NCBI RefSeq assembly: GCF_900128445.1
Contig: NZ_LT671417.1
Coordinates: 310,001-374,000, forward strand
DNA: 64,000 bases
Source of the DNA: Thermophilibacter provencensis
GTDB lineage: Bacteria > Actinomycetota > Coriobacteriia > Coriobacteriales > Atopobiaceae
Direction of reading: 5' to 3'
The position numbers were made by a program, and so were the translations under genes. Positions 23,452 through 37,871 of this stretch are shown here, in pieces (position 1 is the first letter of the stretch; every line of letters begins with the position of its first letter). The notes below the pieces were generated by a model. That model was not told the origin of the DNA. It did no database searches and worked only from the letters and a program-made list of their open reading frames with translations.

Positions 23452-23470
23452 CGAGTGACGCGTTTTGACC
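23452..23470 (+). repeat. Half copy of the TGAGTGACG-family hairpin beside the IS end
   Basis: CGAGTGACGCGTTTTGACC matches one arm of the hairpins at 12269 and 20111 but has no partner arm. It ends 13 bp from the left end of the IS remnant, so insertion may have removed the other arm. The rest of 23259-23483 shows no gene. Confidence 0.5.
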
Positions 23471-23527
23471 AGACGGGGGGCTCGGACAAAAAGTTGGACA
23501 CCCATAGGTGTCCGGATTGGAGTCCGA

Positions 23528-23995
23528 GTGTACCCAGAGGAAGTGAGGGCAGAGGCCGTGGAGGCCGTCCGCCTGGGTTTCAGCCTGGCCGAGGCGGCGG
23601 AGCTCGTCGGCTGCTCTAAGTCCACGGTGGGCGCATGGGTGCTCGCCGCCGGCGCCGGGCGCCCGGGGCGCGGCGGCGCCGTACACTTGCCCTACGACAC
23701 GAAGGTGGGGCTCGTCGCCCGCTACAAGGCGGGCGAGCGCGCCGCGGACCTCGGCCGCGGGGCCGGCGTGACGGGATGCGCCGTCACCAACTGGGCGCGC
23801 AGGCTCCGCGAGGAGGGGGTGCTCTCGCTCATGGCGGGGGACGAGATCAGGGCCGCCGCGCCCGAGCCCGCCGGGCCGCCGTCCGAGCTCGAGGGGCTCA
23901 GGCGCAGGTGCGGGGAGCTGGAGCTGGAGAACGCGATACTCAGGGGCACGGTGGACATACTAAAAAAGACCCCGGCGCCGACCCCTCGGACCTGA
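23528..23995 (+). CDS. IS3-family OrfA (helix-turn-helix subunit), element 1
   Basis: About 155 residues from a GTG at 23528 (GGAGTCCGA just upstream; an ATG would lie outside the IS end). The N-terminal homeodomain-like HTH reads AVEAVRLGFSLAEAAELVGC, and a second HTH follows, DLGRGAGVTGCAVTNWARRL. The C-terminal leucine-rich stretch LRRCGELELEN-like coiled coil leads to the frameshift site. It looks intact, but its partner reading frame is broken. Confidence 0.8.
   Translation: MYPEEVRAEAVEAVRLGFSLAEAAELVGCSKSTVGAWVLAAGAGRPGRGGAVHLPYDTKVGLVARYKAGERAADLGRGAGVTGCAVTNWARRLREEGVLSLMAGDEIRAAAPEPAGPPSELEGLRRRCGELELENAILRGTVDILKKTPAPTPRT
23962..23968 (+). other. Programmed -1 frameshift heptamer A AAA AAG
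   Basis: In the OrfA frame the codons are CTA AAA AAG; slipping back one base continues as AAA AAA GAC into the OrfB frame without a stop. This is the canonical IS3-family slippery site and lies at the A/B junction. Confidence 0.85.
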
Positions 23996-24605
23996 CGCGG
24001 GCTGAGAGGGCGGCGCTGGCCGAGTCGCTCAGGGCCGAGTTCGGGCTGGCCCGCGTGCTCGCGGCGCTCTCCCTGCCGAGGAGCACGTTCTACCACCGCC
24101 TCGCAGCCGCGTCGGCCCCGGACCCCTACGCCGCGCTCAGGCCCCTCGTGCGCGCGAAGTTCGAGGCGTCGGGCGGCGCCTACGGCCCGGCGCGCGTCTG
24201 GGCCGCGCTGAGGTCGGGCGGCGGCGAGCCCCAGAGGGCGCGCGGGGCCGCCTCGCTCGACCCGTCGCGCCCGGTGAGGGTGAGCAAGAAGGTGGTCAGG
24301 CGCGTCATGCGCGAGGAGGGGCTCTCGGCCCGCGCCGCCGCGCCCGCGGCCCGGCCCTACAGCTCCTACGCCGGCGAGGAGGGCATGGCGGGCGCGCCGA
24401 ACCTGCTGCTCGTCGACGCCTCCCGCGACCCGCGCGACTTCTCGGCCGGGCGGCCCGGCGAGCGCCTCGTCACCGACATCACGGAGCTCGGGCTCCCCGA
24501 CGACGCCAGGAAGGCGTGCTTGTCGCCCGTCATCGACCTCTTCGACGGCGACGTCGTGGCCTTCTCGGCCGGGACCAGCCCCCTCCAAGGCCCTCGTCGC
24601 CGAGA
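23963..24605 (+). pseudogene. IS3-family OrfB (DDE transposase), element 1, truncated
   Basis: After the frameshift the protein reads DLTRAERAALAESLRAEFGL, then LSLPRSTFYHRL and KKVVRRVMREEGLSAR, the standard OrfB N-terminus. In the catalytic core the first Asp is in LVTDITELGLPD and the second in SPVIDLFDGDVVAFSAGTSP. One base appears lost after TSP (frame shift from SKALVAE to LQGPRR), and similarity stops near 24605, so the catalytic Glu and C-terminus are missing. Confidence 0.82.
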
Positions 24606-25331
24606 AGTCGTGGGAGTCCGCCGTGCCCTCGGCGAGCAGCAGGTTCGGCGCGGAGCGCAGCCCTGCTCGCCGGCGTAGGAGCTGTAGCGCCACCGGCGCG
24701 GCCGGCGGGCCGCGAGGCCCTCCTCGCGCATCACGCGCCTCACGCGCTTCTCGGAGGCGACGACCCCGCGGCGGCGCAGCTCGGCGTGCACGCGCCGGTA
24801 GCCGTAGCGGTCCCGGCCCGCCTCGAACGCCTCCCTCACGAGCGGCCTGAGGGCCGCGTACCGGTCGCGGCCCAGGCGCGAGCGGTGGTACTCATATGAG
24901 CTCCTCGATATCCTCAAGAAACCGGCGATCGAGCGGAGGGGCAGGCCTGTCTCCCGCCTCAATCTCTCGCCGAGCTCGCACTTGCTCCTGTTCGAGATCG
25001 AAGCCAGGTCCCACCCTCCCGCTTTTAGGTCGGCCAACACCGCCCTGAACAGCAGGTTCTCTATCTGCGCCGGCGCCAGCCCCGCGAGGGGCCCGGTCGC
25101 CGGCGGGTCGTACAGCCCCTTCTCGGACATGCGCGCCGCCCTTCCGCCGGTGGTGTCGCCGCCCATCCTACCGGAGCCCCACGGCGCGCCCGTGTAGCTC
25201 CTCGGCAGGAGACCAGCGGACCACGCGCCGGCGGTGCTGAGGGGGACGCCGGCGAGCTCCGCCGCCTCCCGGAGCGTCATCCCCTCCTCCCGCGCGAGCA
25301 GCACCAGGCCGACCTCGTCCCCGTCGTGCAT
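24600..25331 (-). pseudogene. IS3-like transposase, element 2, frameshifted and truncated
   Basis: Read leftward from the ATG at 25331 (GGAGG before it). A HTH (MTLREAAELAGVPLSTAGAW) and the OrfB-type N-terminus (IAGFLRISRSSYEYHRSRL, KRVRRVMREEGLAARRPRR) lie in one uninterrupted frame, unlike element 1. After YSSYAGEQG a one-base loss shifts the frame; the continuation APNLLLAEGTADSHDFSAT is found in another frame and then ends at the junction with element 1. Not functional. Confidence 0.8.
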
Positions 25332-25388
25332 GCGGACCTCCGTCCCGGACCCGCGAGGGTCCAACTTTTCGTCCGCATCCCCAGCTCG

Positions 25389-25609
25389 TCTAGAATTTGC
25401 GGCCCTTGTCCGGGGCGATTCTAGAAATCGCCGCCCTTGTCGCCGGCCCTTCTGAGAAACGGCGGCCTTGTCCGGGAGGCTTCTAGAGAACGCGGCCCTT
25501 GTCCGCCGCAGGGGCCGCGGGGCCGTACAACCCCTCGGATTCCTAGACACGGTGCGGACAAGGGCGGCGTTTCCTAGGCGCGGCCAGGACAAGGGCGGCG
25601 TTTCCGAGA
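25389..25609. repeat. Mirror array A, 31-bp unit: four direct units, then three inverted
   Basis: Direct units (consensus CTAGRAANCGCCGCCCTTG plus TCC) start at 25389, 25420, 25451 and 25482, exactly 31 bp apart. Inverted units start at 25525, 25556 and 25587, again 31 bp apart; the innermost is degenerate. The centre (CCGCAGGGGCCGCGGGGCC region) is shared with array B at 32210-32492. The left edge is 14 bp from the IS end. No gene is present in 25375-25626. Confidence 0.88.
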
Positions 25610-25626
25610 AGGGCGCGCCGCCGTGA

Positions 25627-26280
25627 CTACGCCAGCGAGGCGACCCGTCGCTCCCCGACCAGGTCGACCAGCTCGAAGAGGTCGTCCATCACGAGGTCCG
25701 CCTCGCGCTGGTCGAGAAGGGCCCCGTCCGGCTGGCGCAGCGCGCACACGAGCGCGCCCGCCGCCTTGCCGGCACGGATGCCGGTCGGCGAGTCCTCGAC
25801 CACGACGGACTCCTCGGGGGACACGCGCAGGCGTCGCATGGCGCGCAGGTAAATCTCGGGGTCGGGCTTGTGGGCGACGCACTCGTCGCCGCTGATCACG
25901 TAGTCCGTGAGGCCGCCGAGGTCGAGCGCCTCCATGCACTCCTCGATGAGGAAGCGCGGCGACGACGAGCAGATGGCGATCCTCACGCCACGGCCGCGCA
26001 GGGCGACGAACGTCGCGTGCGCGTGCCTGTTGCCCAGCTCGCCCCAGGGCGTGGGATGCTCGTCGGCGAAGCGGTTGTACCCGGCGCGCAGGCGCTCCCG
26101 CAGCGCGGCGTCGCCGGGGACGCAGCGCTCCCAGGACTCGTCGTCGTGGACGCCGGTCCAGTCGTCGACGTCACCCAGCTCGAACCCCTGACCGCGCAGA
26201 TACTCGACGCGACGCCGGTTGTAGTAGCGCTCGGTGAACGCAAGCACCCCGTCCATGTCGAACAGCGCCGCCTTGACCAC
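25627..26280 (-). CDS. HAD-superfamily phosphatase, beta-phosphoglucomutase-like
   Basis: 217 residues. Motif I is ALFDMDGVLAF, motif II ICSSSPRF, motif III lysine in CVAHKPDPEIYLRAMRRL, motif IV VVEDSPTGIRAGKAAG; the helical cap lies between I and II. This is the phosphoglycolate phosphatase/beta-phosphoglucomutase subgroup acting on sugar phosphates. GTG start with AAGGAG 7 nt upstream. It follows the PTS EIID gene on the same strand but a strong hairpin (26303-26341) separates them, so partial co-transcription is the most that can be claimed; a role on the sugar phosphate delivered by the PTS is plausible. Confidence 0.88.
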   Translation of the reverse strand: MVKAALFDMDGVLAFTERYYNRRRVEYLRGQGFELGDVDDWTGVHDDESWERCVPGDAALRERLRAGYNRFADEHPTPWGELGNRHAHATFVALRGRGVRIAICSSSPRFLIEECMEALDLGGLTDYVISGDECVAHKPDPEIYLRAMRRLRVSPEESVVVEDSPTGIRAGKAAGALVCALRQPDGALLDQREADLVMDDLFELVDLVGERRVASLA

Positions 26281-26302
26281 TTCCGCTCCTTCCGTGAGAC
26301 GA

Positions 26303-26341
26303 CGCGCCGCCGCGGCCGCGGGGGGCGGGCGCGGCGGCGCG
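26303..26341 (-). terminator. Hairpin between EIID and the HAD phosphatase gene
   Basis: CGCGCCGCCGCG pairs with CGCGGCGGCGCG across a 15-nt loop. No U-run follows, so attenuation or mRNA stabilisation is as likely as full termination. Confidence 0.6.
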
Positions 26342-26364
26342 AGAGAGGGACGTTGCGCAGGGTC

Positions 26365-27180
26365 CTACACGAGCCCGAGGGCGGCGAGGACAATGCCCAG
26401 GATGAGCAGGCCGAACATGACCATCGTGCCCGAGCGTCCGCTCTTGAGCAGCTTGTAGCAGCCACCGACGAGGCCGAGCGGGAGGATGTACGGGCAGATC
26501 TGGTCGAGGACCTCCTGGAGCACGACCGTGGCGCCGTTGATGTCGACCGTGGCGCTGAGCGTGAGCAGGACCATCGAGGGGATCATGGCGCCGATGACCA
26601 TGAGGCCCATGATGCGCGCGGCCTCGGTGACCTTCTGGAGCGTGCCGTCGCTCGAGATGCGCTCGAGGAACTTGGAGCCGCCGCTGTAGCCGATCTTGAA
26701 GCCCCAGCGACGCACGATCTCGGACGGGATCACGTTGAGGATCGCGTAGATGATCGGGCCGAGGACGTTGCCCGCCACGGCGAGCGGCGCGCCGATGCCG
26801 GCGCCGATGACGCGGAAGGTGCCCCAGAAGAACGAGTCGCCGATGCCGGCGAGCGGGCCCATGAGCGCCGCCTTGACCGAGGTGATGGAGCTGGTGTCGT
26901 AGCTTCCGGGCTCGGAGGCGTTCTGCTCCTCCATCGCGCAGGTCAGGCCGATGATGAACGGGGAGGTGGACGTCGCGCAGTTGAAGAACTCGAGGTGGCG
27001 CTTCACGGCCTCCTGCATGGCCTTCGGGTCGTCCTTGTAGAGCTCCTTCAGGGCGGGCATCATCGTGTAGCCGTAGCCCGTGGACATCTGCCGCTCGTAG
27101 TTGAAGCAGCCGAGCAGCTGGTAGTGACGCCAGAAGACGCGGCGGAGGGTCTTGGCGCTAATCTTCTTCTCTTCTGCCAT
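26365..27180 (-). CDS. PTS mannose/fructose/sorbose-family EIID component
   Basis: A 271-residue membrane subunit that, with EIIC, forms the sugar channel of a mannose-family phosphotransferase system. The N-terminus carries RRVFWRHYQLLGCFNYERQM, the middle the conserved PFIIGLTCAMEEQNA and ALMGPLAGIGDSFFWGTFRV, and the C-terminus hydrophobic segments (VIGAMIPSMVLLTLS; TMVMFGLLILGIVLAALGLV). Two bases separate it from EIIC, so it is translated with it. Complete relative to the family. Confidence 0.95.
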   Translation of the reverse strand: MAEEKKISAKTLRRVFWRHYQLLGCFNYERQMSTGYGYTMMPALKELYKDDPKAMQEAVKRHLEFFNCATSTSPFIIGLTCAMEEQNASEPGSYDTSSITSVKAALMGPLAGIGDSFFWGTFRVIGAGIGAPLAVAGNVLGPIIYAILNVIPSEIVRRWGFKIGYSGGSKFLERISSDGTLQKVTEAARIMGLMVIGAMIPSMVLLTLSATVDINGATVVLQEVLDQICPYILPLGLVGGCYKLLKSGRSGTMVMFGLLILGIVLAALGLV

Positions 27181-27182
27181 GA

Positions 27183-27977
27183 TTAGAGCTCCTCACTGTC
27201 GTCATCGTCGACGACGGTCTCACCGGACGTGGCGGCAAGGACGGACCCGGAGGCCTTGTTGCCGCTCAGCATGTAGTAGACGACGGCCGCGATGGCTCCG
27301 AAGAAGGCGGCGCCGAGGGTGCTCACGCCGAGGAACGCGGCGAGCGCGAAGCCGAGGAACAGGAACACGCCGAACTTCTTGTCCCAAGTGAGCTGGATCA
27401 GCATGGCCACGCCGAGGGCGGGCAGGATGTTGCCGGACTGGTTGAGGCCGTTCTGGATGACGTCGGGGATCTGGTCCACGAAGGCGGTGATGACGCCGGA
27501 GCCCAGAACGAAGCCTAGGAAGATGGGCACGAACTTGAACAGGAAGTACACGATGCCGCCGCCCCAGACGCACCAGTCGATGAGGTCGTACTTCTCCTTG
27601 TCGGCGAGGCGGTCGGCCTGGTGGGCGAAGAAGGTGTTCACGATCGGCGCCGCGATGTCGCAGATCTGCGCGACGACGGCGATGGGCACCGCGAGGGCGA
27701 GCGTGGTCTCGTAGGACGCGCCGGTGCTGATCGCGAGCGCGGTCGCGAGCGCGGAGCCCACGACGACGTTGGGCGGGGTGGTGGTGCCGATGCCGTTGAG
27801 GCCCATCCACACGAGCTCGAGCTCGCCGCCGATCACGAGGCCCTTCATCGGGTCGCCCATGATGAGGCCCACGATCGGGCCGATGATGATCGGGCGGTCG
27901 AGCATGTGCTGACCACCGAGACGGGACTCGAGGTAGATCAGCGACGCCACGAGGGCGACCAAGAATCCTTGCAGCAT
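27183..27977 (-). CDS. PTS mannose/fructose/sorbose-family EIIC component
   Basis: 264 residues, mostly hydrophobic. The N-terminal LVALVASLIYLESRLGGQHM and the signature IGGELELVWMGLNGIGTTTP match the sugar-binding EIIC family. It forms the transport unit with EIID. The C-terminus ends in a run of acidic residues (VVDDDDSEEL) that is not a standard family feature. The gene follows EIIB after a 60-bp gap that contains a GC hairpin. Confidence 0.95.
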   Translation of the reverse strand: MLQGFLVALVASLIYLESRLGGQHMLDRPIIIGPIVGLIMGDPMKGLVIGGELELVWMGLNGIGTTTPPNVVVGSALATALAISTGASYETTLALAVPIAVVAQICDIAAPIVNTFFAHQADRLADKEKYDLIDWCVWGGGIVYFLFKFVPIFLGFVLGSGVITAFVDQIPDVIQNGLNQSGNILPALGVAMLIQLTWDKKFGVFLFLGFALAAFLGVSTLGAAFFGAIAAVVYYMLSGNKASGSVLAATSGETVVDDDDSEEL

Positions 27978-28004
27978 GTCGTTCCTCTCTCTTGCTGACT
28001 TGCG

Positions 28005-28030
28005 GCGGGCGCGCCGGGCGACGCGCCCGC
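28005..28030 (-). promoter_or_regulatory. Intercistronic hairpin between EIIB and EIIC
   Basis: GCGGGCGCG pairs with CGCGCCCGC around an 8-nt loop in the short gap between two PTS genes. It probably protects or tunes mRNA segments of the operon. Confidence 0.5.
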
Positions 28031-28037
28031 TCCGTTC

Positions 28038-28541
28038 CTACTTGAAGGCCCGCTCGATGGCCGCGAAGTCGGCGCTCTCGAGCGTGGGGTTGGCCTGGCC
28101 GAAGACCGTGACGCCGGCGTCGTTCAGGGCGCGCGCCGCCTCGAGCTCCTCGGCGGTGGTGTAGACCTGCGGGATGATGGCCACGTAGGTCTCGCCGGGC
28201 TTCTTGTTCACGCCGGCGGTGCCGATGTTGAGACGCGTGAACTTGTGCACGTCGTCCAGCAGGTCATAGATCCGCTTGGCGTCCTCCACCGTCTGCGTGA
28301 CCAGGAAGATCTTCTTGTTGTCGTTGACGGGGTTGTTGAGCGCGGCCGCCGCCTTCTCGACGGACTTGACGAACAGCTTCACGCCGGCGGGCTTGGCCAG
28401 CTTGAGCGAGTTCTTCTTGAACTCGTCGGCCGCCGCGGCGTCGTTGGCCACCAGAATGGTCTCCGGCGCGAGGTGCGACGTCCAGGCAACGGCTACGAGT
28501 CCGTGGATGAGGCGGTCGTCTGCCCTGGTGAGCACGATCAT
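28038..28541 (-). CDS. PTS mannose/fructose/sorbose-family EIIB component
   Basis: A 167-residue cytoplasmic phosphocarrier that passes phosphate from EIIA to the sugar. The conserved N-terminus IVLTRADDRLIHGLVAVAW contains the phosphorylated His (in LIHG, about residue 13). The rest matches the Man-family IIB fold (FLVTQTVEDAKRIYDLLDDV). Normal length. Confidence 0.95.
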   Translation of the reverse strand: MIVLTRADDRLIHGLVAVAWTSHLAPETILVANDAAAADEFKKNSLKLAKPAGVKLFVKSVEKAAAALNNPVNDNKKIFLVTQTVEDAKRIYDLLDDVHKFTRLNIGTAGVNKKPGETYVAIIPQVYTTAEELEAARALNDAGVTVFGQANPTLESADFAAIERAFK

Positions 28542-28570
28542 GTCTACTCCCTTCCCTGTTCTTCTCGGCT

Positions 28571-28587
28571 GCTCGCCCGCGGCGAGC
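28571..28587 (-). promoter_or_regulatory. Intercistronic hairpin between EIIA and EIIB
   Basis: GCTCGCC pairs with GGCGAGC around CGC, 7 bp after the EIIA end. It resembles the other intercistronic hairpin in this operon. Confidence 0.45.
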
Positions 28588-28594
28588 CTCTTGG

Positions 28595-29032
28595 CTAGAG
28601 CTCCTCCTCGTCCTCGTCTCCCTCCTCCTCGGCGCTCGGCTCCTCGGGAGCGGGGATGTCCGCGAGGGGGAGCATGAGCTGGGCGCGTGCGCTCGCCACC
28701 GTCTGCGCGAGCGTCTCATACGTGGGGTCGTCCTCGAACGCGAGCTCGAGGAGCAGAGGCATGTTGATGCCGCTCACCAGCAGGAATCCGTACTCGCCCG
28801 CCAGCCTCATCGCCACCTGGTTGACGGAGCCGCCGGGGATGTCGGTGCACACGACGACGGGGCCGCCCGCGGGCAGCGCCTCGAGCGCCTCTCGCAGCTC
28901 GCGCTCGAACTCGGTCGTCGCCACGTAGCCGTTGAGGTAGTGGACGTTGTCGGCGTCCGCCTTGAAGAAGCGGATCGCGCCGGCAAAGCCCTCGGCGAGC
29001 GTGGAGTGCGTGGCGATAAGAACCTGGCTCAT
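28595..29032 (-). CDS. PTS mannose/fructose/sorbose-family EIIA component
   Basis: 145 residues. QVLIATHSTLAEGFAGAIRF carries the phospho-accepting His (about residue 9), and VVVCTDIPGGSVNQVAMRL is the second family block. The C-terminal 25 residues are an acidic tail (PSAEEEGDEDEEEL) beyond the EIIA fold. It starts 9 bp after the SIS-domain gene and so is translated with it. Confidence 0.95.
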   Translation of the reverse strand: MSQVLIATHSTLAEGFAGAIRFFKADADNVHYLNGYVATTEFERELREALEALPAGGPVVVCTDIPGGSVNQVAMRLAGEYGFLLVSGINMPLLLELAFEDDPTYETLAQTVASARAQLMLPLADIPAPEEPSAEEEGDEDEEEL

Positions 29033-29041
29033 GGCGCGCTC

Positions 29042-30148
29042 CTAGTTGAGGTGGGCGAACGAGGTGCGGTTGGCCGGGCGGTAGCGCGTGTCGATCTTGG
29101 CGTTGATGCAGTTGCGGCAGGCCATGATCTGCAGGGGGATCACCATGACCAGCGGGGTGAGCTCGTCGGGGACCTCCTGCTCGAAGCAGATGGACTTCTC
29201 GCCAAACTCCCCGGCGTGGTCGCCGTTGGTGATGACGAAGACGTGGTCGGTGACCTTGTTGTCCTCGTACCACTTGAGGAAGCTCGGGACGCGCTCGATG
29301 CCGGGGCCGTCCGGCGCGACGAAGAAGGAGTAGTTGTTCTCGTCGAGCGCGTAGTGCGGGCCGTGGATCATCTCCTCGAGCTCGTAGCCGCGCACCGGCT
29401 TGTGGAAGGTCTCGTTGAGCTTGAGCTCGGCCTCCTCGGCGGTGCAGGCGTTGATGCCGTAGGTGCAGACGTAGCCGCGCGTGATGGCCATGAGCTCGAA
29501 GACGTTCGCGTCGTACCAGGCGTCGGCCTGGGCGACGAAGCTGTCGTAGTCGTTCGCGAGGCGCTCGGCGTCGGCGAGCTTCTGCGCGTAGGCGGCGTCG
29601 TCGAGGGTGCCCAGGGCGTGGCCGGCGGCGATGGCGAGCAGGTAACCCTCGAAGAGCGAGACCTGGTAGCCGCGCGTCTCCACGTGCACCTCCTCCTTGC
29701 CCGTGAGCAGACGGATGGCGGAGTCGACGCTCTCGGTGACGGGGCTGTCCATGACGTCGGTGAGCGCGAGCGCGTAGAAGCCGGCCTCGTGCGCGCGGCG
29801 CATGACGTCGATGGTGGAGACGCTCGTGCCGGACTGCGAGACGCCCACGACGAGCACCTGGTCGGGACGATAGGCGCCGCTCGTGGCGATGTCGTTCTCG
29901 TCGAAGCGCGTGGGGAAGCCGGCGCTGGCCTCGACGCGCGCGTAGCGCTGCATGAGCGTGGAGATGTAGATCGAGGCGTTGTAGCTCGTGCCCGAGCCCA
30001 CGAAGTAGACGCGCTTGAAGTCGTGCGTCGTCATGAGCTCGACGAACGGGTCGCAGAACACCGCGCGCTCCGCGAAGGCGTTGCGCAGCGCGTGGCCGGT
30101 GTCCTTGATGTAGCCGTACATGCTGGGGTCTTCGAGCTTGGTGATCAT
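29042..30148 (-). CDS. SIS-domain sugar isomerase/deglycase
   Basis: A 368-residue double-SIS protein like FrlB/GfrF (fructoselysine-6-phosphate deglycase) and AgaS/glucosamine-6-phosphate deaminases. The first SIS domain has YFVGSGTSYNASIYISTLMQ and VGVSQSGTSVSTIDVM; the second covers the C-terminal half with ELKLNETFHKPVRGYELEEM and HGPHYALDENNYSF. No glutaminase domain is present, so it is not GlmS. As the first gene of an operon with a Man-family PTS, it probably processes the 6-phosphorylated import product, either an amino sugar or an Amadori compound. AAGGAG lies 6 nt before the ATG. Expression is likely controlled by the divergent GntR regulator. Confidence 0.85.
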   Translation of the reverse strand: MITKLEDPSMYGYIKDTGHALRNAFAERAVFCDPFVELMTTHDFKRVYFVGSGTSYNASIYISTLMQRYARVEASAGFPTRFDENDIATSGAYRPDQVLVVGVSQSGTSVSTIDVMRRAHEAGFYALALTDVMDSPVTESVDSAIRLLTGKEEVHVETRGYQVSLFEGYLLAIAAGHALGTLDDAAYAQKLADAERLANDYDSFVAQADAWYDANVFELMAITRGYVCTYGINACTAEEAELKLNETFHKPVRGYELEEMIHGPHYALDENNYSFFVAPDGPGIERVPSFLKWYEDNKVTDHVFVITNGDHAGEFGEKSICFEQEVPDELTPLVMVIPLQIMACRNCINAKIDTRYRPANRTSFAHLN

Positions 30149-30183
30149 GTCCGCTCCTTCGGTCCGCTTGTCCTTAGCAACTT

Positions 30184-30193
30184 TGTATATACA
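30184..30193. promoter_or_regulatory. Candidate GntR operator, site 1 (TGTATATACA)
   Basis: A perfect 10-bp palindrome 35 bp upstream of the SIS-gene start. It shares TGTA(T/C)A(G/T)ACA with two more sites in the same divergent gap. Confidence 0.55.
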
Positions 30194-30270
30194 TTTTGTC
30201 TCTTTGTAATGACATTGTGGGCCGAATGGTATCTATCCGTCGGTAACTGGCTGATGGCGAGGTGAACATA

Positions 30271-30280
30271 TGTACAGACA
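30271..30280. promoter_or_regulatory. Candidate GntR operator, site 2 (TGTACAGACA)
   Basis: Matches the shared decamer and lies in the middle of the 275-bp divergent region, 87 bp from site 1. Confidence 0.5.
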
Positions 30281-30365
30281 AACCTGAAAAACAGCAGCTC
30301 CTGGAGGCGGCGTCGCTGGCGGAAGCCACCGGAACCCGACGTGTTTCGACCGTTGGAATAATTCA

Positions 30366-30375
30366 TGTATAGACA
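30366..30375. promoter_or_regulatory. Candidate GntR operator, site 3 (TGTATAGACA)
   Basis: Lies 48 bp before the GntR start, 95 bp from site 2, in A+T-richer DNA; suits autoregulation. Confidence 0.55.
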
Positions 30376-30423
30376 ATTACAAACAGTTTGTTACCCTCCT
30401 TGGTAGAGACGGGAGGAGGCGTC

Positions 30424-31137
30424 ATGGCGCGAGAGCCCAAGTACCGGTTGGTCGAGAAGACCGTCCACGAGATGATCGAGGACGGGACGCTCAAGGTGGG
30501 AGACCAGGTCCCCACCGAGGAGGAGCTCTGCGAGCGGTTTGGCTTCTCGCGCATGACCGTGAGCAAGGCCCTCAACAACCTCTCCGCCGACGGCTACATC
30601 GAGCGCGTCCCCGGGCGCGGCAGCTTCGTGACCCGCCGCCACGTGAACAAGAGCCTCGCCGGCGGGGCGAGCTTCACCGAGGACATGGCCGCCATCGGCC
30701 TGAAGGCCGGCGCGCGCCTCATCTCCTACGAGGTCGTCAGCGCAGCAGACGCGCCGGTGGCTGCCGAGAAGCTCGGGCTCTCGGGCACGGACCTCATCCA
30801 CCACTTCGTGCGCCTCCGCACCGGCGACGACATGCCCATAGCCATCAGCGACACCTACATCTCCGCCCCCGTAATCCCCGCGATCAGCGTGGAGTGCCTG
30901 AACGGCTCGCTCTACGACTACGTCCACTCGCTCGGCATCAGCACCTCGCACGTCGACCAGGAGCTTCGCGCGCTGCTGCCCACCGAGGAGCAGAAGCGCC
31001 TGCTCGAGGCCGACGACATCGCCCTGCTCTGCTCGTCGCACGTGACCTACACCACGATCGACGGCATCTCTGTGCCGTTCGAGTACATCAACACCTACTA
31101 CAACGGGAGCGTCTACACCTACCGCCACACCACGTAG
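30424..31137 (+). CDS. GntR/HutC-family transcription regulator (UTRA domain)
   Basis: 237 residues. N-terminal winged helix: KYRLVEKTVHEMIEDGTLKV, then PTEEELCERFGFSRMTVSKA and GRGSFVTRR, a textbook GntR DNA-binding domain (1-72). Residues about 90-235 form a UTRA ligand-binding domain that usually senses a phosphorylated sugar. The ATG at 30424 has GGAGG 5 nt upstream, better than the start 12 codons earlier. It diverges from the SIS-PTS operon, and three shared decamers lie between the genes, so it probably represses both and is relieved by the operon's sugar phosphate. Confidence 0.93.
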   Translation: MAREPKYRLVEKTVHEMIEDGTLKVGDQVPTEEELCERFGFSRMTVSKALNNLSADGYIERVPGRGSFVTRRHVNKSLAGGASFTEDMAAIGLKAGARLISYEVVSAADAPVAAEKLGLSGTDLIHHFVRLRTGDDMPIAISDTYISAPVIPAISVECLNGSLYDYVHSLGISTSHVDQELRALLPTEEQKRLLEADDIALLCSSHVTYTTIDGISVPFEYINTYYNGSVYTYRHTT

Positions 31138-31159
31138 GTCTTCAACAACGGAGGAACGC

Positions 31160-32176
31160 ATGCGTCACGACGACCCTGGGCGGCTCGCCGCCGAGGAGGA
31201 GCTCTCTCATGCCGGGGTGAGGCCGGAGCAGGCCTCGCCCGCCTACGAGGGGGCGCCCGTCATCCAGGCCGAGCGTCTGCTCACGCCCGAGGAAGAGCGC
31301 ATGAGCGACCGCCTGCTGCTGCGCCGCGACCGCCCGAGCATGGTGCGGACCGCCGTGGCGGTGAACGTCGGGGCGATTCTGTGCGCGCTGTCCTACGTGC
31401 TGTTCCAGGCCCCCAACAACCTCGCCACCGGCGGTGCATCGGGCATGGCCATCGTCATCTCCACGCTCGTCCCCGCCCTGCCGAGCGACGTGGCGCTCTG
31501 GGCCGTGAACGTGGCGCTCGTGGTGGTCGGCCTGATCTTCGTCGAGCGTCGCGCCGTGGCCTGGAGCGTCGTGGCGTCGATCCTGCTCTCGGTATACGTA
31601 AGCGTGCTCCAGGCGCTGGTCCCCGTGAGCGGGTCCGTGACGGGGGACCTCTGGATCGACCTCGTCTGCTCGCTGGTGCTCGTCGCCGCAGGCGCGGGCA
31701 TCGCCTACAACGCCGGCGCCTCCACGGGAGGGACCGACATCCTGGTGATGGCGCTCGCGCGACACACGAGCCTGCCCACCGGCCACGCGATCACTGTGGT
31801 CAACGCCGTGACCGCCTGCTCGGGCGTGGCGCTCTACGGGGCGCGGACGGGCATTTACTGCATCATTGGCCTGCTGCTGGAGACGGTCATCGTGAACGGC
31901 GTGCTCGACGACCTCAAGCAGCACAAGGTCTGCACCGTCGTCTGCCGCCAGCCCGCGCGCGTCCAGGAGTTCGTGGTGCGCCGCCTCGCGCGCACCGCCA
32001 CGGTCTGGCTTGCGTACGGGGCGTACACGGGCAGGGAGCTCTCGGTCGTGATGACCGTGCTGACGCGTTCGGAGGCCCTCAGGCTCGAGAAGTACCTGCG
32101 GGGGATCGACCCGGACGCCTTCGTGACCTACGTCAACACGTCGCAGATCACGGGCCACGGCTTCCGCTGGGTGTAG
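31160..32176 (+). CDS. YitT-family membrane protein (DUF161 + DUF2179)
   Basis: 338 residues. A 60-residue cytoplasmic N-terminus rich in Glu and Arg is followed by about six transmembrane helices with the family motifs APNNLATGGASGMAIVIST and YNAGASTGGTDILVMALARH, then a C-terminal soluble DUF2179 domain (about 255-338). Function of the family is unknown; transport or sensing is suggested by architecture. GGAGG precedes the ATG. It follows the GntR gene by 22 bp on the same strand and may be co-transcribed with it. Confidence 0.88.
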   Translation: MRHDDPGRLAAEEELSHAGVRPEQASPAYEGAPVIQAERLLTPEEERMSDRLLLRRDRPSMVRTAVAVNVGAILCALSYVLFQAPNNLATGGASGMAIVISTLVPALPSDVALWAVNVALVVVGLIFVERRAVAWSVVASILLSVYVSVLQALVPVSGSVTGDLWIDLVCSLVLVAAGAGIAYNAGASTGGTDILVMALARHTSLPTGHAITVVNAVTACSGVALYGARTGIYCIIGLLLETVIVNGVLDDLKQHKVCTVVCRQPARVQEFVVRRLARTATVWLAYGAYTGRELSVVMTVLTRSEALRLEKYLRGIDPDAFVTYVNTSQITGHGFRWV

Positions 32177-32209
32177 GGTTGCGTCCGGACTGTTCTTATC
32201 GGCCGCAAC

Positions 32210-32492
32210 TCCAAGAATCGCCGGGGTTGTCCGGGGGACGTCTAGGATTTGCCGCCCTTGTCCGGGGCGGCCCCGGGAATCGCCGCCCTTGTCGCCCGCC
32301 CTTCTAAGAAACGGCGACCTTGTTCGAAGAGCTTCTAGAGAACGCGGCCCTTGTCCGCCGCAAGGGCCGCGGGGCAGTACAACCCCTCGGATTCCTAGAC
32401 GCGGCGCGGACAAGGGCGGCATTTCCTAGATGCGGCCAGGACAAGGGTCGGCTTTCCTAGAAGCGCGGGCGACAAGGGCGGGGATTCCGAGA
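32210..32492. repeat. Mirror array B, 31-bp unit: five direct units, then four inverted
   Basis: Direct units start at 32210, 32241, 32272, 32303 and 32334; inverted units start at 32377, 32408, 32439 and 32470. Every step is exactly 31 bp. The best units read TCTAGAGAACGCGGCCCTTG and, inverted, GGACAAGGGCGGCATTTCCT. The central block is nearly identical to that of array A. The array fills the 331-bp gap between the convergent YitT and mfd gene ends and contains no gene. Confidence 0.9.
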
Positions 32493-32507: not shown

Positions 32508-35500
32508 CTACTCCTCGTCCACCTCGTCGTCGCCGCCGATCTCCTCGAGAACGCCGAGCGCGGCGGGCATGACCTCCTCCTCGGTGCGATGGAAGGGGTA
32601 AGCCACCTTGTGAGTCTTGGGGTACACGAGCGCGCCGCGCTCCTTGAGCCTGAGCGCCACGGGGCGCGGCACCTCGACCCCCTGGTAGATGAGCCGGCCG
32701 TTGGAGAGGCTGACAGAGGAGCATCCCAGCCGCTGCGCGCGAATGCGCACGCGGGCGCGGTCGAAGAGGTTGCGCCCGGCCAGCGGCAGCGCGCCGAAGT
32801 CCTTCTCGCACTCCTCCTGCAGGGCGTCCACCTCGGCCAGGTCCACGGCAGCAGCCAGGCGCCGGTACGCGAGCACGCGCTTGTCCACGTCGGGCAGGTA
32901 CTCCTCGGCGAGGAAGAAGTCCGCCGGCAGGTTGATGGTGACCTCTGCCCGCTCAACGTCGCGCGTCTCGCCGCGCGCCTCTGCCACGGCCTCGCCGAGC
33001 ATCTGCGTGAAGAGGTCAAAGCCCACACTGGAGAGGTTGCCGTGCTGCTCGGCGCCCATGAGCGAGCCCGCGCCGCGAATCTCGAGGTCGCGCATCGCGA
33101 TCTTCATGCCGCTGCCCAGGTCCTGATACTCGTTGATGGCGGTGAGGCGGTCGGTGGCCTCGGGCGTGAGGGGCTGCTCGGCCGGGAACATGAAGTAGGC
33201 GAAGGCCTGCGTGCGCCCGCGACCTACGCGGCCCTTGAGCTGGTAGAGCTGTGCCAGTCCCAGGCGCTGCGAGTCCTCGATGATGAGCGTGTTGGTGCGC
33301 GGGTTGTCGATGCCGCTCTCGATGATCGTGGTGGCCACCAGCACGTCTATCTCATGCTCCTGGAAGTGGAGCATCACGTCCTCGACCTCGCGCGCGCTCA
33401 TCTTGCCGTGCGCCACGCCCACGCGGGCCTCGGGCGCGGCCTCCATCACGCGCTCCACGGCGTCGTCGATCGTGTGGACGCGGTTGCTCACGTAGTAGAC
33501 CTGCCCCTTGCGCGCGAGCTCATCACGAATTGCGGCGGAGACGATGTCCGGGTCCCACTCCCCCACGGTGACCTTCACGGGCAGGCGCCCGGGCGGGGGC
33601 GTCATGATGAGGCTCATGTCGCGCACGCCGCTCATGGCCATCTGCATGGTGCGCGGGATGGGCGTGGCCGAGAGCGTGAGCACGTCCACCTGCTCGCGCA
33701 TGTTCTTGAGCTGCTCCTTGTGCTGCACGCCAAAGCGTTGCTCCTCGTCGATGATGACGAGCCCCAGGTCGTACGGGTTGACGTCTGCCGAGAGCAGCCG
33801 GTGTGTGCCAATGAGCACGTCCACCGAGCCGTCCGCGAACCCCTCGAGCGCCTTGCGCTGCCGGGCCGGGGTCACAAAGCGGGAGAGCACGGCAACCTTG
33901 AGGTCAAAGGGCGCAAAGCGCGAGAAGAACGTCTCGAAGTGCTGCTGCGCCAGGATGGTCGTGGGGCAGAGCACCATGACCTGCTTGGCGTCCTGGCAGC
34001 ACTTGAAGGCCGCGCGCAGGGCCACCTCGGTCTTGCCGAAGCCCACGTCGCCACAGAGCAGGCGGTCCATCGGACGGCGCGCCTCCATGTCCGCCTTGAT
34101 GTCGGCGATCGCTGAGCGCTGGTCGGACGTGAGCTCATAGGAGAAGCTCGCCTCCATCTCCTCCTGGACGGGAGTGTCCTGGGCGAACGCGTAGCCGGGC
34201 ACGGAGCTGCGGCGCGTGTAGAGGTCCACGAGGTCAAACGCGAGCTTCTTCGCGGAGCGCCGCGCCTTGCCGGTGGCGCGCGACCAGTCGGCCGTGTTGA
34301 GGCGCGTGAGGCGTGGGCTGGCGCCGTCCGGCCCCACATAGCGCGTGATGCGGTCCACCTGCTCAAAGGGCACAAAGAGCTTGTCGCCGCCGGCATACTC
34401 CAGGAGGAAGTAGTCGCGCTCGCGACCGGCCACCTCCTGGCGCACGATTTCCGCGAAGAGCGCGATGCCGTGCGTGGCGTGAACGACGTAGTCCCCGGGC
34501 TTGAAGGGGAAGGTCACGCTCGTGGGGTCCACGCGCCGGGCGCGGCGGCGGTTCTTGGCCGTGCGCGCCGTGAGGTCGGAGACCGAGAAGACCGCAAGCC
34601 CCGCCGTGGGAATCACGATGCCCGCCGGCACCGGCGCGTCGATGAACGTGACGCGCCCGCGCTCGAGGGGCGGGACCTGCGGGTCGTTGTTCTCGGACGA
34701 GGTGCCGAGCGACTCCACGACGGGAACGGATTCGTCGGTGAAGCGCAGCTCCAGGGCCTCGCGCGCCGCGCGGTCCGGCACGGCGAAGAGCACCGAGGCC
34801 CTGTCGTCCACGAGCTGGCGCACACGGCCCATGAGCTTGGCGTCAGAACCGGCGATCTGCGGCTGGCGCACGGCAAGCTCGGCCGTCGCCGCGCCCGACC
34901 CCGCGCGCAGGATGGACGAGAAGGACAGGCGTTGCTGGCTGCCGAAGTCCATCTCGCGCGGTGCGGTATAGAGACCGTCGAGCGAGACATGCGAGGCGTT
35001 TGCCGCGACAGAGATCTCGTCATAGGCACGCATGCAGTCGTCGAAGAGGGCGCGCGGCTCGGCGAGCACCACGAGGGCGTCGGCGCTCATGTGCTCGAGC
35101 GGGCCAGACGTGGACCCGTAGAGCGCCGGCAGATACCGCTCCAGAGCTGGGTCGGCCGCGCGCTGGCGGATCAGCTCGAGGTCCGCGGCTATCTTGCCGT
35201 TGTCCTGTGCGCGGTTGTAGAGCGCCCGCTCGGCGCGAGTCACGGTCTCGTCAGTGAACGCCAGCTCGCGGCAGGGGGAGACCGTCACCTCAGAGAGCTC
35301 GCCGATGGTCTGTCCCGTGGAGGGGACCATGCGGCGCACGCGATCGATCTCGTCGCCGAAGAACTCTAGGCGCACCGGCGAGGTGGCCTGCGCCGGAAAG
35401 ACGTCGACCGCGTCACCGTGCACGTGGAAGGTGCCGGGCGCGTCCACGTCCCCGGCGTCGGTGTAGCCCATGCCCACGAGCAGAGCCGGGACATCCTCAA

Positions 35501-35954
35501 AGGGCACCTCCTCCCCCACCGCGAAGGTGCTTGAGGCGAAGTAGCCCGAACCCCGGGGCGGCACGCGACGCAGCAGCGCGTGCGCCGAGGCCACCACGAC
35601 GCACCTCTCGCCCTCGGCGAGGCGCGCGACGGCGCGGCAGCGCGCGCCAATCACGGCGTCGTCCGGCGCGGAGTCCGACCACGGGCGGTCGCGGCGCTCC
35701 GGATAGCGGCAGACCGCGTCCTGCCCAAGCCACGCCGCGAGCGCGCGGGCCGCGCGGTCGGCGGCCTCCTCGCCCGAGACCACGAAGAGGCAGGGGCGCG
35801 GGTCGCGAGCCCAGAGGGCCGCAAGCACGAGCGGGCGCGCGGACTGCGCCACGGCGAGCGTGGCGTCATGGCCGGCCCCGAGCTCGCGCAGCAGCGGCTC
35901 GAGCTCGGGAGCGGAGAGGAGCTTGCGGGAGACGCGGTCGATCAGCATGGGCAT
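32508..35954 (-). CDS. mfd: Transcription-repair coupling factor Mfd
   Basis: A 1148-residue translocase that removes stalled RNA polymerase and recruits UvrA. The N-terminal third is the UvrB-like part without helicase motifs. The RNA-polymerase-interacting domain is seen as KPGDYVVHATHGIALFAEIV and FVPFEQVDRITRYVG. The motor has Walker A GDVGFGKTEVAL, the DEEQ box IIDEEQRFGV, LSATPIPRTMQMAMSG, and helicase motif VI QLKGRVGRGRTQAFAY. The C-terminal TRCF domain is complete. Two ATGs (35954 and 35948) are possible; the second has a better-spaced AGGG. It is transcribed alone. Confidence 0.97.
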   Translation of the reverse strand: MPMLIDRVSRKLLSAPELEPLLRELGAGHDATLAVAQSARPLVLAALWARDPRPCLFVVSGEEAADRAARALAAWLGQDAVCRYPERRDRPWSDSAPDDAVIGARCRAVARLAEGERCVVVASAHALLRRVPPRGSGYFASSTFAVGEEVPFEDVPALLVGMGYTDAGDVDAPGTFHVHGDAVDVFPAQATSPVRLEFFGDEIDRVRRMVPSTGQTIGELSEVTVSPCRELAFTDETVTRAERALYNRAQDNGKIAADLELIRQRAADPALERYLPALYGSTSGPLEHMSADALVVLAEPRALFDDCMRAYDEISVAANASHVSLDGLYTAPREMDFGSQQRLSFSSILRAGSGAATAELAVRQPQIAGSDAKLMGRVRQLVDDRASVLFAVPDRAAREALELRFTDESVPVVESLGTSSENNDPQVPPLERGRVTFIDAPVPAGIVIPTAGLAVFSVSDLTARTAKNRRRARRVDPTSVTFPFKPGDYVVHATHGIALFAEIVRQEVAGRERDYFLLEYAGGDKLFVPFEQVDRITRYVGPDGASPRLTRLNTADWSRATGKARRSAKKLAFDLVDLYTRRSSVPGYAFAQDTPVQEEMEASFSYELTSDQRSAIADIKADMEARRPMDRLLCGDVGFGKTEVALRAAFKCCQDAKQVMVLCPTTILAQQHFETFFSRFAPFDLKVAVLSRFVTPARQRKALEGFADGSVDVLIGTHRLLSADVNPYDLGLVIIDEEQRFGVQHKEQLKNMREQVDVLTLSATPIPRTMQMAMSGVRDMSLIMTPPPGRLPVKVTVGEWDPDIVSAAIRDELARKGQVYYVSNRVHTIDDAVERVMEAAPEARVGVAHGKMSAREVEDVMLHFQEHEIDVLVATTIIESGIDNPRTNTLIIEDSQRLGLAQLYQLKGRVGRGRTQAFAYFMFPAEQPLTPEATDRLTAINEYQDLGSGMKIAMRDLEIRGAGSLMGAEQHGNLSSVGFDLFTQMLGEAVAEARGETRDVERAEVTINLPADFFLAEEYLPDVDKRVLAYRRLAAAVDLAEVDALQEECEKDFGALPLAGRNLFDRARVRIRAQRLGCSSVSLSNGRLIYQGVEVPRPVALRLKERGALVYPKTHKVAYPFHRTEEEVMPAALGVLEEIGGDDEVDEE

Positions 35955-37757: not shown

Positions 37758-37775
37758 ATTTCTGCGTGCGGGGGC

Positions 37776-37871
37776 CGTGCAAAGGGGACGGGCGTGCAAA
37801 GGGGACAGGCACTTTTGCACGGGACCGTGCAAAAGTGCCTGTCCCCTTTGCACGCCCGTCCCCTTTGCACG
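37776..37871. repeat. 96-bp near-perfect palindrome (47-bp arms, 2-nt centre)
   Basis: Each arm contains a partial unit (GTGCAAAGGGGACGGGC) and a full unit (GTGCAAAGGGGACAGGCACT then TTTGCAC). The arms are exactly complementary around GA. It touches the stop codon of the GH13/GH77 gene and may terminate the glycogen operon. Confidence 0.9.

Follow-up and report, generated by a model that had tools for sequence, protein, structure and literature searches.

Repeats between bacterial genes are usually read as hairpins, such as REP and ERIC, or as CRISPRs. Sites of a different kind are known from the iteron arrays of replication origins and the multi-site ends of transposons (TnsB/MuA), where asymmetric sites of about 22 bp stand in register and are bound cooperatively; the arrays reported here likewise have several asymmetric sites of about 22 bp in register. 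The nearest known kind is the REP/BIME cluster. REPs and BIMEs are, like our repeats, dispersed extragenic elements forming composite clusters with orientation flips, many per genome, and BIMEs bind IHF and gyrase while REPs bind Pol I (PMC2817692). Inverted arms made of short tandem units, as found here, are also described, in the accessible portions of two sources, for the foldback elements Galileo and Tetris (PMC3573991, PMC4079207).

Array geometry and the repeat unit

The window, by which we mean the whole stretch of 64,000 nucleotides analysed from Thermophilibacter provencensis, holds two mirror arrays of the same family (Table 1). For array 2, the initial annotation described five direct units facing four inverted units at one exact 31-bp period, and the re-mapped unit starts confirm this, with steps of exactly 31 bp in both arms; its direct starts stand, while its inverted starts were off by one (32378, not 32377). 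Array 1, at 25389-25609, lies 7 kb from array 2. In the genome as a whole (2.63 Mb), 9 places match the 22-base unit pattern with at most 3 mismatches, all in these two arrays, and the backward control gives 0.

Table 1. Coordinates of the arrays and neighbouring features in the window
Feature	Position	Strand	Basis or score
Array 1, direct arm, four units, cores 25389, 25420, 25451, 25482	25389..25512	+	unit mapping
Array 1, inverted arm, three units, cores 25526 (degenerate), 25557, 25588	25517..25609	-	unit mapping
Block 97.1% identical to Olsenella sp. An270 (G013): HAD hydrolase, PTS genes, GntR regulator, YitT, array 1	25383..32186	.	alignment, family search; SIS gene and PTS membrane genes named by eye
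YitT-family membrane protein, convergent, to the left of array 2	31160..32176	+	PF02588, PF10035
Array 2, direct arm, five 31-bp units (22-bp core + 9-bp spacer each), starts 32210, 32241, 32272, 32303, 32334	32210..32364	+	19, 33, 28, 27, 30 bits
Array 2, centre, 22 bp between innermost cores, start-to-start 44	32356..32377	.	unit mapping
Array 2, inverted arm, cores 32378 (degenerate), 32409, 32440, 32471	32369..32492	-	7, 37, 23, 30 bits
mfd-like gene, convergent, to the right of array 2	32508..35954	-	presumably mfd, a name taken from the initial annotation rather than a family search

According to a profile of 405 units from several species, the unit is a 22-bp asymmetric conserved core, about TCTRGRAATCGCCGCCCTTGTC, with a 9-bp variable, G+C-rich spacer. 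Only one of the eight window units folds with z below -2, showing that the units are not palindromic. The degenerate cores, the spacers of 9 or 19 bp and the orientation flip at the centre speak against a CRISPR; the earlier statement that this is not a CRISPR holds, while the accompanying one that variable spacers are missing does not, as each 22-bp core has a 9-bp variable spacer after it. A variant unit with CTTCTC was revealed by a looser two-unit skeleton in G004, G015 and G028.

On the whole, 144 mirror arrays in 142 groups were mapped in eight species: Olsenella sp. An270 (G013) with 38, Atopobium sp. UBA1382 (G003) 29, Olsenella uli An820 (G030) 26, an uncultured Olsenella (G024) 22, Thermophilibacter gallinarum DSM 107455 (G004, picked with the variant CTTCTC pattern) 20, Atopobiaceae S24M_St_33 (G015) 4, the window's own genome (G000) 2 and G028 1. 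All 142 two-armed groups start on the left with a direct unit and end on the right with an inverted one; since 104 of these had earlier been cut at inverted-to-direct joins, the order there is partly by construction. These 104 came from 99 uncut groups (106 pieces), and a direct unit comes first in 98 of the 99; the remaining group has a single arm and lies where a contig begins. Outside the 142 groups stand one-armed groups at contig ends (L010, L049) and single units (L066, L082).

Within the arms, 614 of 733 steps measure 31 ± 1 bp, 93 measure 41 ± 1 bp, 21 measure 62 ± 1 bp and five are of other lengths. The step is mostly 41 bp in T. gallinarum and two other species and 31 bp elsewhere, with one of the 93 steps of 41 ± 1 bp belonging to a 31-bp species; within single T. 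gallinarum arrays some 31-bp steps accompany the usual 41. The centre step equals 44 plus whole unit lengths in 125 of the 144 arrays. Among the other 19, 16 deviate from 44 by whole 10.35-bp turns to within 1.5 bp and three (26, 52, 94) are out of phase, with a binomial p of 1.5e-6 that assumes a chance rate of 0.3 and treats as independent 19 centres which are not so, because some are orthologues. For the centres, periods between 10.2 and 10.5 bp (R 0.90-0.96) fit better than one of 11.0 bp (R 0.62-0.64), and the arm steps do not discriminate between these periods. The estimate of about three helical turns per 31-bp unit is supported. A single ancestral unit length could account for most of the in-phase steps; independent tests come only from the 31/41 switch and the odd centres. 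The whole-turn spacing expected of an iteron-like array of phased protein sites is seen here, G007 being an exception: read by eye, it has a mirrored array of distantly related units with steps of 38 bp and 50 bp, out of phase. There, at 2000-2180 of L259, one arm consists of near-identical 38-bp tandem units (GGGATTYCGCGGGGTTGCG core) and the other of two units 50 bp apart.

Variation in unit number under a kept mirror layout, raised by the initial annotation, is seen across species at one locus (5+6, 6+4, 4+4 and 12+9). In G030 (L105, L106, L265), three complete mirror arrays follow in succession within one intergenic region; in L105 the links joining the arrays are alike over the 31 bases compared, which may mean that a mirrored array is duplicated as one block.

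The letters of the unit are unequally constrained. In three orthologous arrays of the sister species G004 and G015, changes occur at 12 of 323 high-information core positions (3.7%), 49 of 284 spacer positions (17%) and 42 of 149 other core positions (28%); in the surrounding DNA 428 of 11559 positions are changed. High-information positions and spacers differ with Fisher p 2e-8, the strong positions having been chosen by us from the information content of the same G004 units, with position 12 omitted (15 of 345 with it). Core positions 0-2, 5-8, 10, 13, 17-19 and 21 are unchanged or nearly so. Judged from the alignments, this is the pattern that a bipartite protein contact on double-stranded DNA would leave.

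Distribution, genomic position and history

The array family is dispersed and belongs to one genus (the Thermophilibacter/Olsenella group). Further copies in related genomes were indeed found: at no more than 3 mismatches, 7 of 31 genus genomes have unit matches (G013 122, G024 91, G030 51, G003 47, the own genome 9, two with 1 each), and 8 of 140 in the family, the eighth being G130 with 1 match. The two nearest relatives, G014 and G029, have none at this threshold. With the looser two-unit skeleton, 10 of 140 genomes match, all within the genus; the backward control gives 2 matches elsewhere among the 140, and the match in G010 may be chance. In five Olsenella-related gut species there are dozens of intergenic arrays per genome, 20 to 38 mapped in each. 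A scan of public genomes adds one mirror array on a contig labelled uncultured Collinsella (L280); two proteobacterial contigs also matched, with no array on either. By the mfd tree alone, from which G003 was left out (gene split, no locus), the array species look scattered. In the rpoB tree (29 rows; G009 dropped, G010 without the locus), G003, G013, G024 and G030 group with G027 and G028 as a six-member clade, and a separate clade of the four alone has a p-AU of 0.065.

The arrays keep their places across species. For 98 of the 142 arrays, which fall into 30 clusters, both flanks recur in more than one species. Eight of the 20 T. gallinarum arrays, with CTTCTC and a 41-bp step, occupy loci holding CTTGTC arrays with a 31-bp step in other species, and the CTTGTC unit has no match in T. 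gallinarum even when 3 mismatches are allowed. This shows that letters and period have changed at conserved positions. For orthologous arrays, cores are 78% alike, spacers 58% and flanks 85%, figures that pool all aligned pairs and count loci common to several species repeatedly.

By the calls of a rough, codon-usage-based gene caller, all 142 groups are intergenic, with overlap of a called gene never beyond 60 bp at an edge, and they stand a median of 26 bp from a stop codon (n 165) and 130 bp from a start (n 115). The 138 arrays with both neighbours called (4 of 142 are without a called neighbour) lie in 38 convergent, 88 co-directional and 12 divergent gaps, and all are mirrored. Background gaps number 53, 238 and 49, respectively; they come from 20-kb stretches of G013 and G004 chosen away from arrays, which give gene orientations and not array density. 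The arrays are enriched between convergent genes (chi-square p 0.005), a modest preference obtained with the rough gene caller and with several arrays in one gap counted apart. Behind glnA, an array is present in 5 of the 30 species viewed (G013, G003, G024, G004, G015) and missing in, for example, G030, G027, G026, G023 and G028; some array-free species carry other palindromes or hairpin-like sequences there. Autoregulation by a neighbour was rejected, as the 20 proteins scanned beside shared arrays are unrelated enzymes, transporters and others, with one MarR regulator and three without a family; proteins beside arrays in divergent gaps were also read for this guess. No candidate binding protein for the unit appears among the proteins scanned beside arrays.

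The 6.8-kb block with array 1 is missing from G014 and G029, where mfd adjoins adh (the gene at 22.2-23.3 kb of the window), and mfd aligns at 85% to An270 and at 94% to G014. Set against the identity of the block to An270, this suggests that array 1 arrived within a transferred block. The array behind mfd in An270, and likewise the one in G024, can be aligned with array 2, which may be either native or separately acquired. At the block edge, decayed transposase pieces (HTH_23/HTH_Tnp_1, HTH_21, weak rve; 23465-25592), which we take to be IS3-like, abut array 1, and the outermost direct unit of An270's array is missing from array 1 at this edge.

Other repeats accompany these loci. One, GTGCAAAGGGGACAGG facing its complement, occurs at 37773-37871 of the window and directly behind mfd in G014 (L336, 4727-4834), and several other species have yet other palindromes behind mfd, which are candidates for REP elements. 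The 11-mer TTCTTCTCGCC (or its complement GGCGAGAAGAA) occurs eight times in the window (17205, 20072, 36050, 50755, 55900, 57147, 58313, 61962). In many species it or a close variant also stands behind mfd and glnA, frequently next to arrays or short hairpins, and it is similar to how the CTTCTC variant of the unit ends.

A proposed binding platform and its rivals

Among the roles proposed by the initial annotation, the protein-binding platform is favoured by the phasing, the per-position constraint and the conserved positions. The arrays, most of which lie behind genes, are probably helically phased, mirror-symmetric platforms to which one sequence-specific protein would bind on double-stranded DNA. 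Each unit would be an asymmetric 22-bp double-stranded site for the same putative protein; sites 31 or 41 bp apart (3 or 4 turns) would lie on the same face of B-DNA, pointing from both sides to the dyad centre, and a chain of cooperatively bound protein would form a single symmetric nucleoprotein structure between the genes, with a preference for places close behind stop codons and at a distance from promoters. Its likely role would be to structure the chromosome locally or to insulate transcription units from each other, mostly at gene ends. In a wider proposal, which we offer tentatively, a putative bipartite protein may form symmetric filaments on dozens of arrays per genome as a chromosome-organising system of the genus, in which protein and sites would co-evolve, letters and period (3 to 4 turns) being rewritten together while the positions are kept.

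The obvious other way to read a mirror array is as a long structured RNA or bidirectional terminator, whose transcript would be one hairpin acting at gene 3' ends. Actually, both strands of the window array are predicted to fold far more stably than shuffles (z -8.9 and -8.6; 0 of 100 shuffles as stable), and the closeness to stop codons and the convergent enrichment would suit such a role. Selection for the hairpin would, however, predict that facing units match best, and they do not: among 259 facing and 993 non-facing pairs from 87 of 104 arrays, core identity is 15.63 vs 15.66 of 22, and spacer identity is 3.36 of 9 for facing, 3.08 for non-facing and 3.35 for same-arm units, a small pooled excess far from pairing. 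The per-array sign-flip test gives p = 0.18 for 31-bp arrays (96 of 119 taken) and 0.22 for 41-bp arrays (15 of 25), and 1 of 271 facing spacers is fully complementary. The hairpin reading thus fails; the structured RNA listed by the initial annotation is not supported, and no compensatory change between facing units is seen. At gathering scores, Rfam yields only four tRNAs within the window, and the centre steps fit B-DNA better than an 11-bp period. A terminator tied to convergent genes is further weakened by the gap orientations, with full mirror arrays also between divergent genes (12 of 138), and by the terminator scan, in which array-bearing 3' ends are not depleted of intrinsic terminator-like hairpins relative to controls (G013, 6 of 37 vs 6 of 110; G004, 2 of 18 vs 6 of 106). 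We therefore regard the RNA or terminator reading as very unlikely. Bending by phased AA (unit positions 6-7) and TT (17-18), with binding of gyrase or a general nucleoid protein, seems more improbable still. These steps are 11 bp apart, about one turn, and recur every 31 bp, so that all would lie on one helix face, and the arrays stand behind genes, where positive supercoils collect. Strong constraint is, however, also found at non-A/T positions (e.g. 13, 21), and this, together with letters differing in concert between species, points to specific recognition. The model for gyrase wrapping is BIME-2, which binds gyrase (PMC2817692).

There is more to be said for a selfish or mobile repeat, a foldback-like MITE or the sites of a domesticated transposase, with whole arrays copied and homogenised by gene conversion. 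Presence per locus is patchy, arrays coming and going as at glnA, and a first clustering left 27 of 104 arrays as singletons. The window's two arrays are 88% alike, against about 86% between array 1 and its An270 orthologue, inside a block where the adjoining gene is about 97% identical. Against mobility, no one-armed group away from contig ends is found in the stretches examined, so no carrier gene between arms is seen; the outer flanks of 104 arrays show by eye no shared end sequence or target duplication, and the glnA locus compared with array-free species shows by eye no target duplication or defined ends. The phage and plasmid collections give no blastn match to the window array, and viral contigs no match to the exact two-unit pattern. 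A domain search for Mu-type (Mu/TnsB) transposases gave no match, its control being also silent. Array positions are common to several species, and per-position constraint within units is not expected of decaying copies. On this balance we consider the mobile repeat unlikely, and the binding platform remains our preferred explanation.

Comparison with known repeat systems

In a mainly open literature on the host genus, REP/BIME, helical phasing, foldback elements and iterons, we found no earlier description of this family. The arrays suggest that an inverted array resembling a hairpin can be a helix-phased platform of double-stranded DNA, and that a comparison of species can separate position, letters and period. 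They offer a direct way to test how scattered binding sites change along with their protein, as well as a concrete bait for a putative structural DNA-binding protein in common gut bacteria.

Unlike iterons and the TnsB/MuA ends, the mirror arrays number dozens per genome, are mirror-symmetric and have no cargo seen between the arms. Galileo and Tetris, so far as the accessible portions of their sources describe them, differ in being eukaryotic, while the mirror arrays are without cargo, without target duplication by eye, and have shared positions and per-position constraint. With respect to REP/BIME, many extragenic copies in clusters with orientation flips are found here too (142 groups). The multi-unit REP cluster that the initial annotation listed is nevertheless not what the units indicate, given their lack of palindromes, and a RAYT/REP system was rejected since the RAYT-type Y1 transposase domain (PF01797) has 0 matches in G013 (98% complete), the genome with most unit matches. 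The domain itself is present in 28 of the 31 genomes of the genus, other array species included. Each of the 28 has 1 to 6 matches, most of them within open frames of some 250-300 aa, and this collection could serve to match RAYTs to species-specific palindromes. In fact, the two kinds differ in both unit and layout: the core profile of the mirror-array unit is asymmetric, and REP/BIME elements alternate in orientation whereas mirror arrays flip once, at a fixed centre, with steps that follow the helix.
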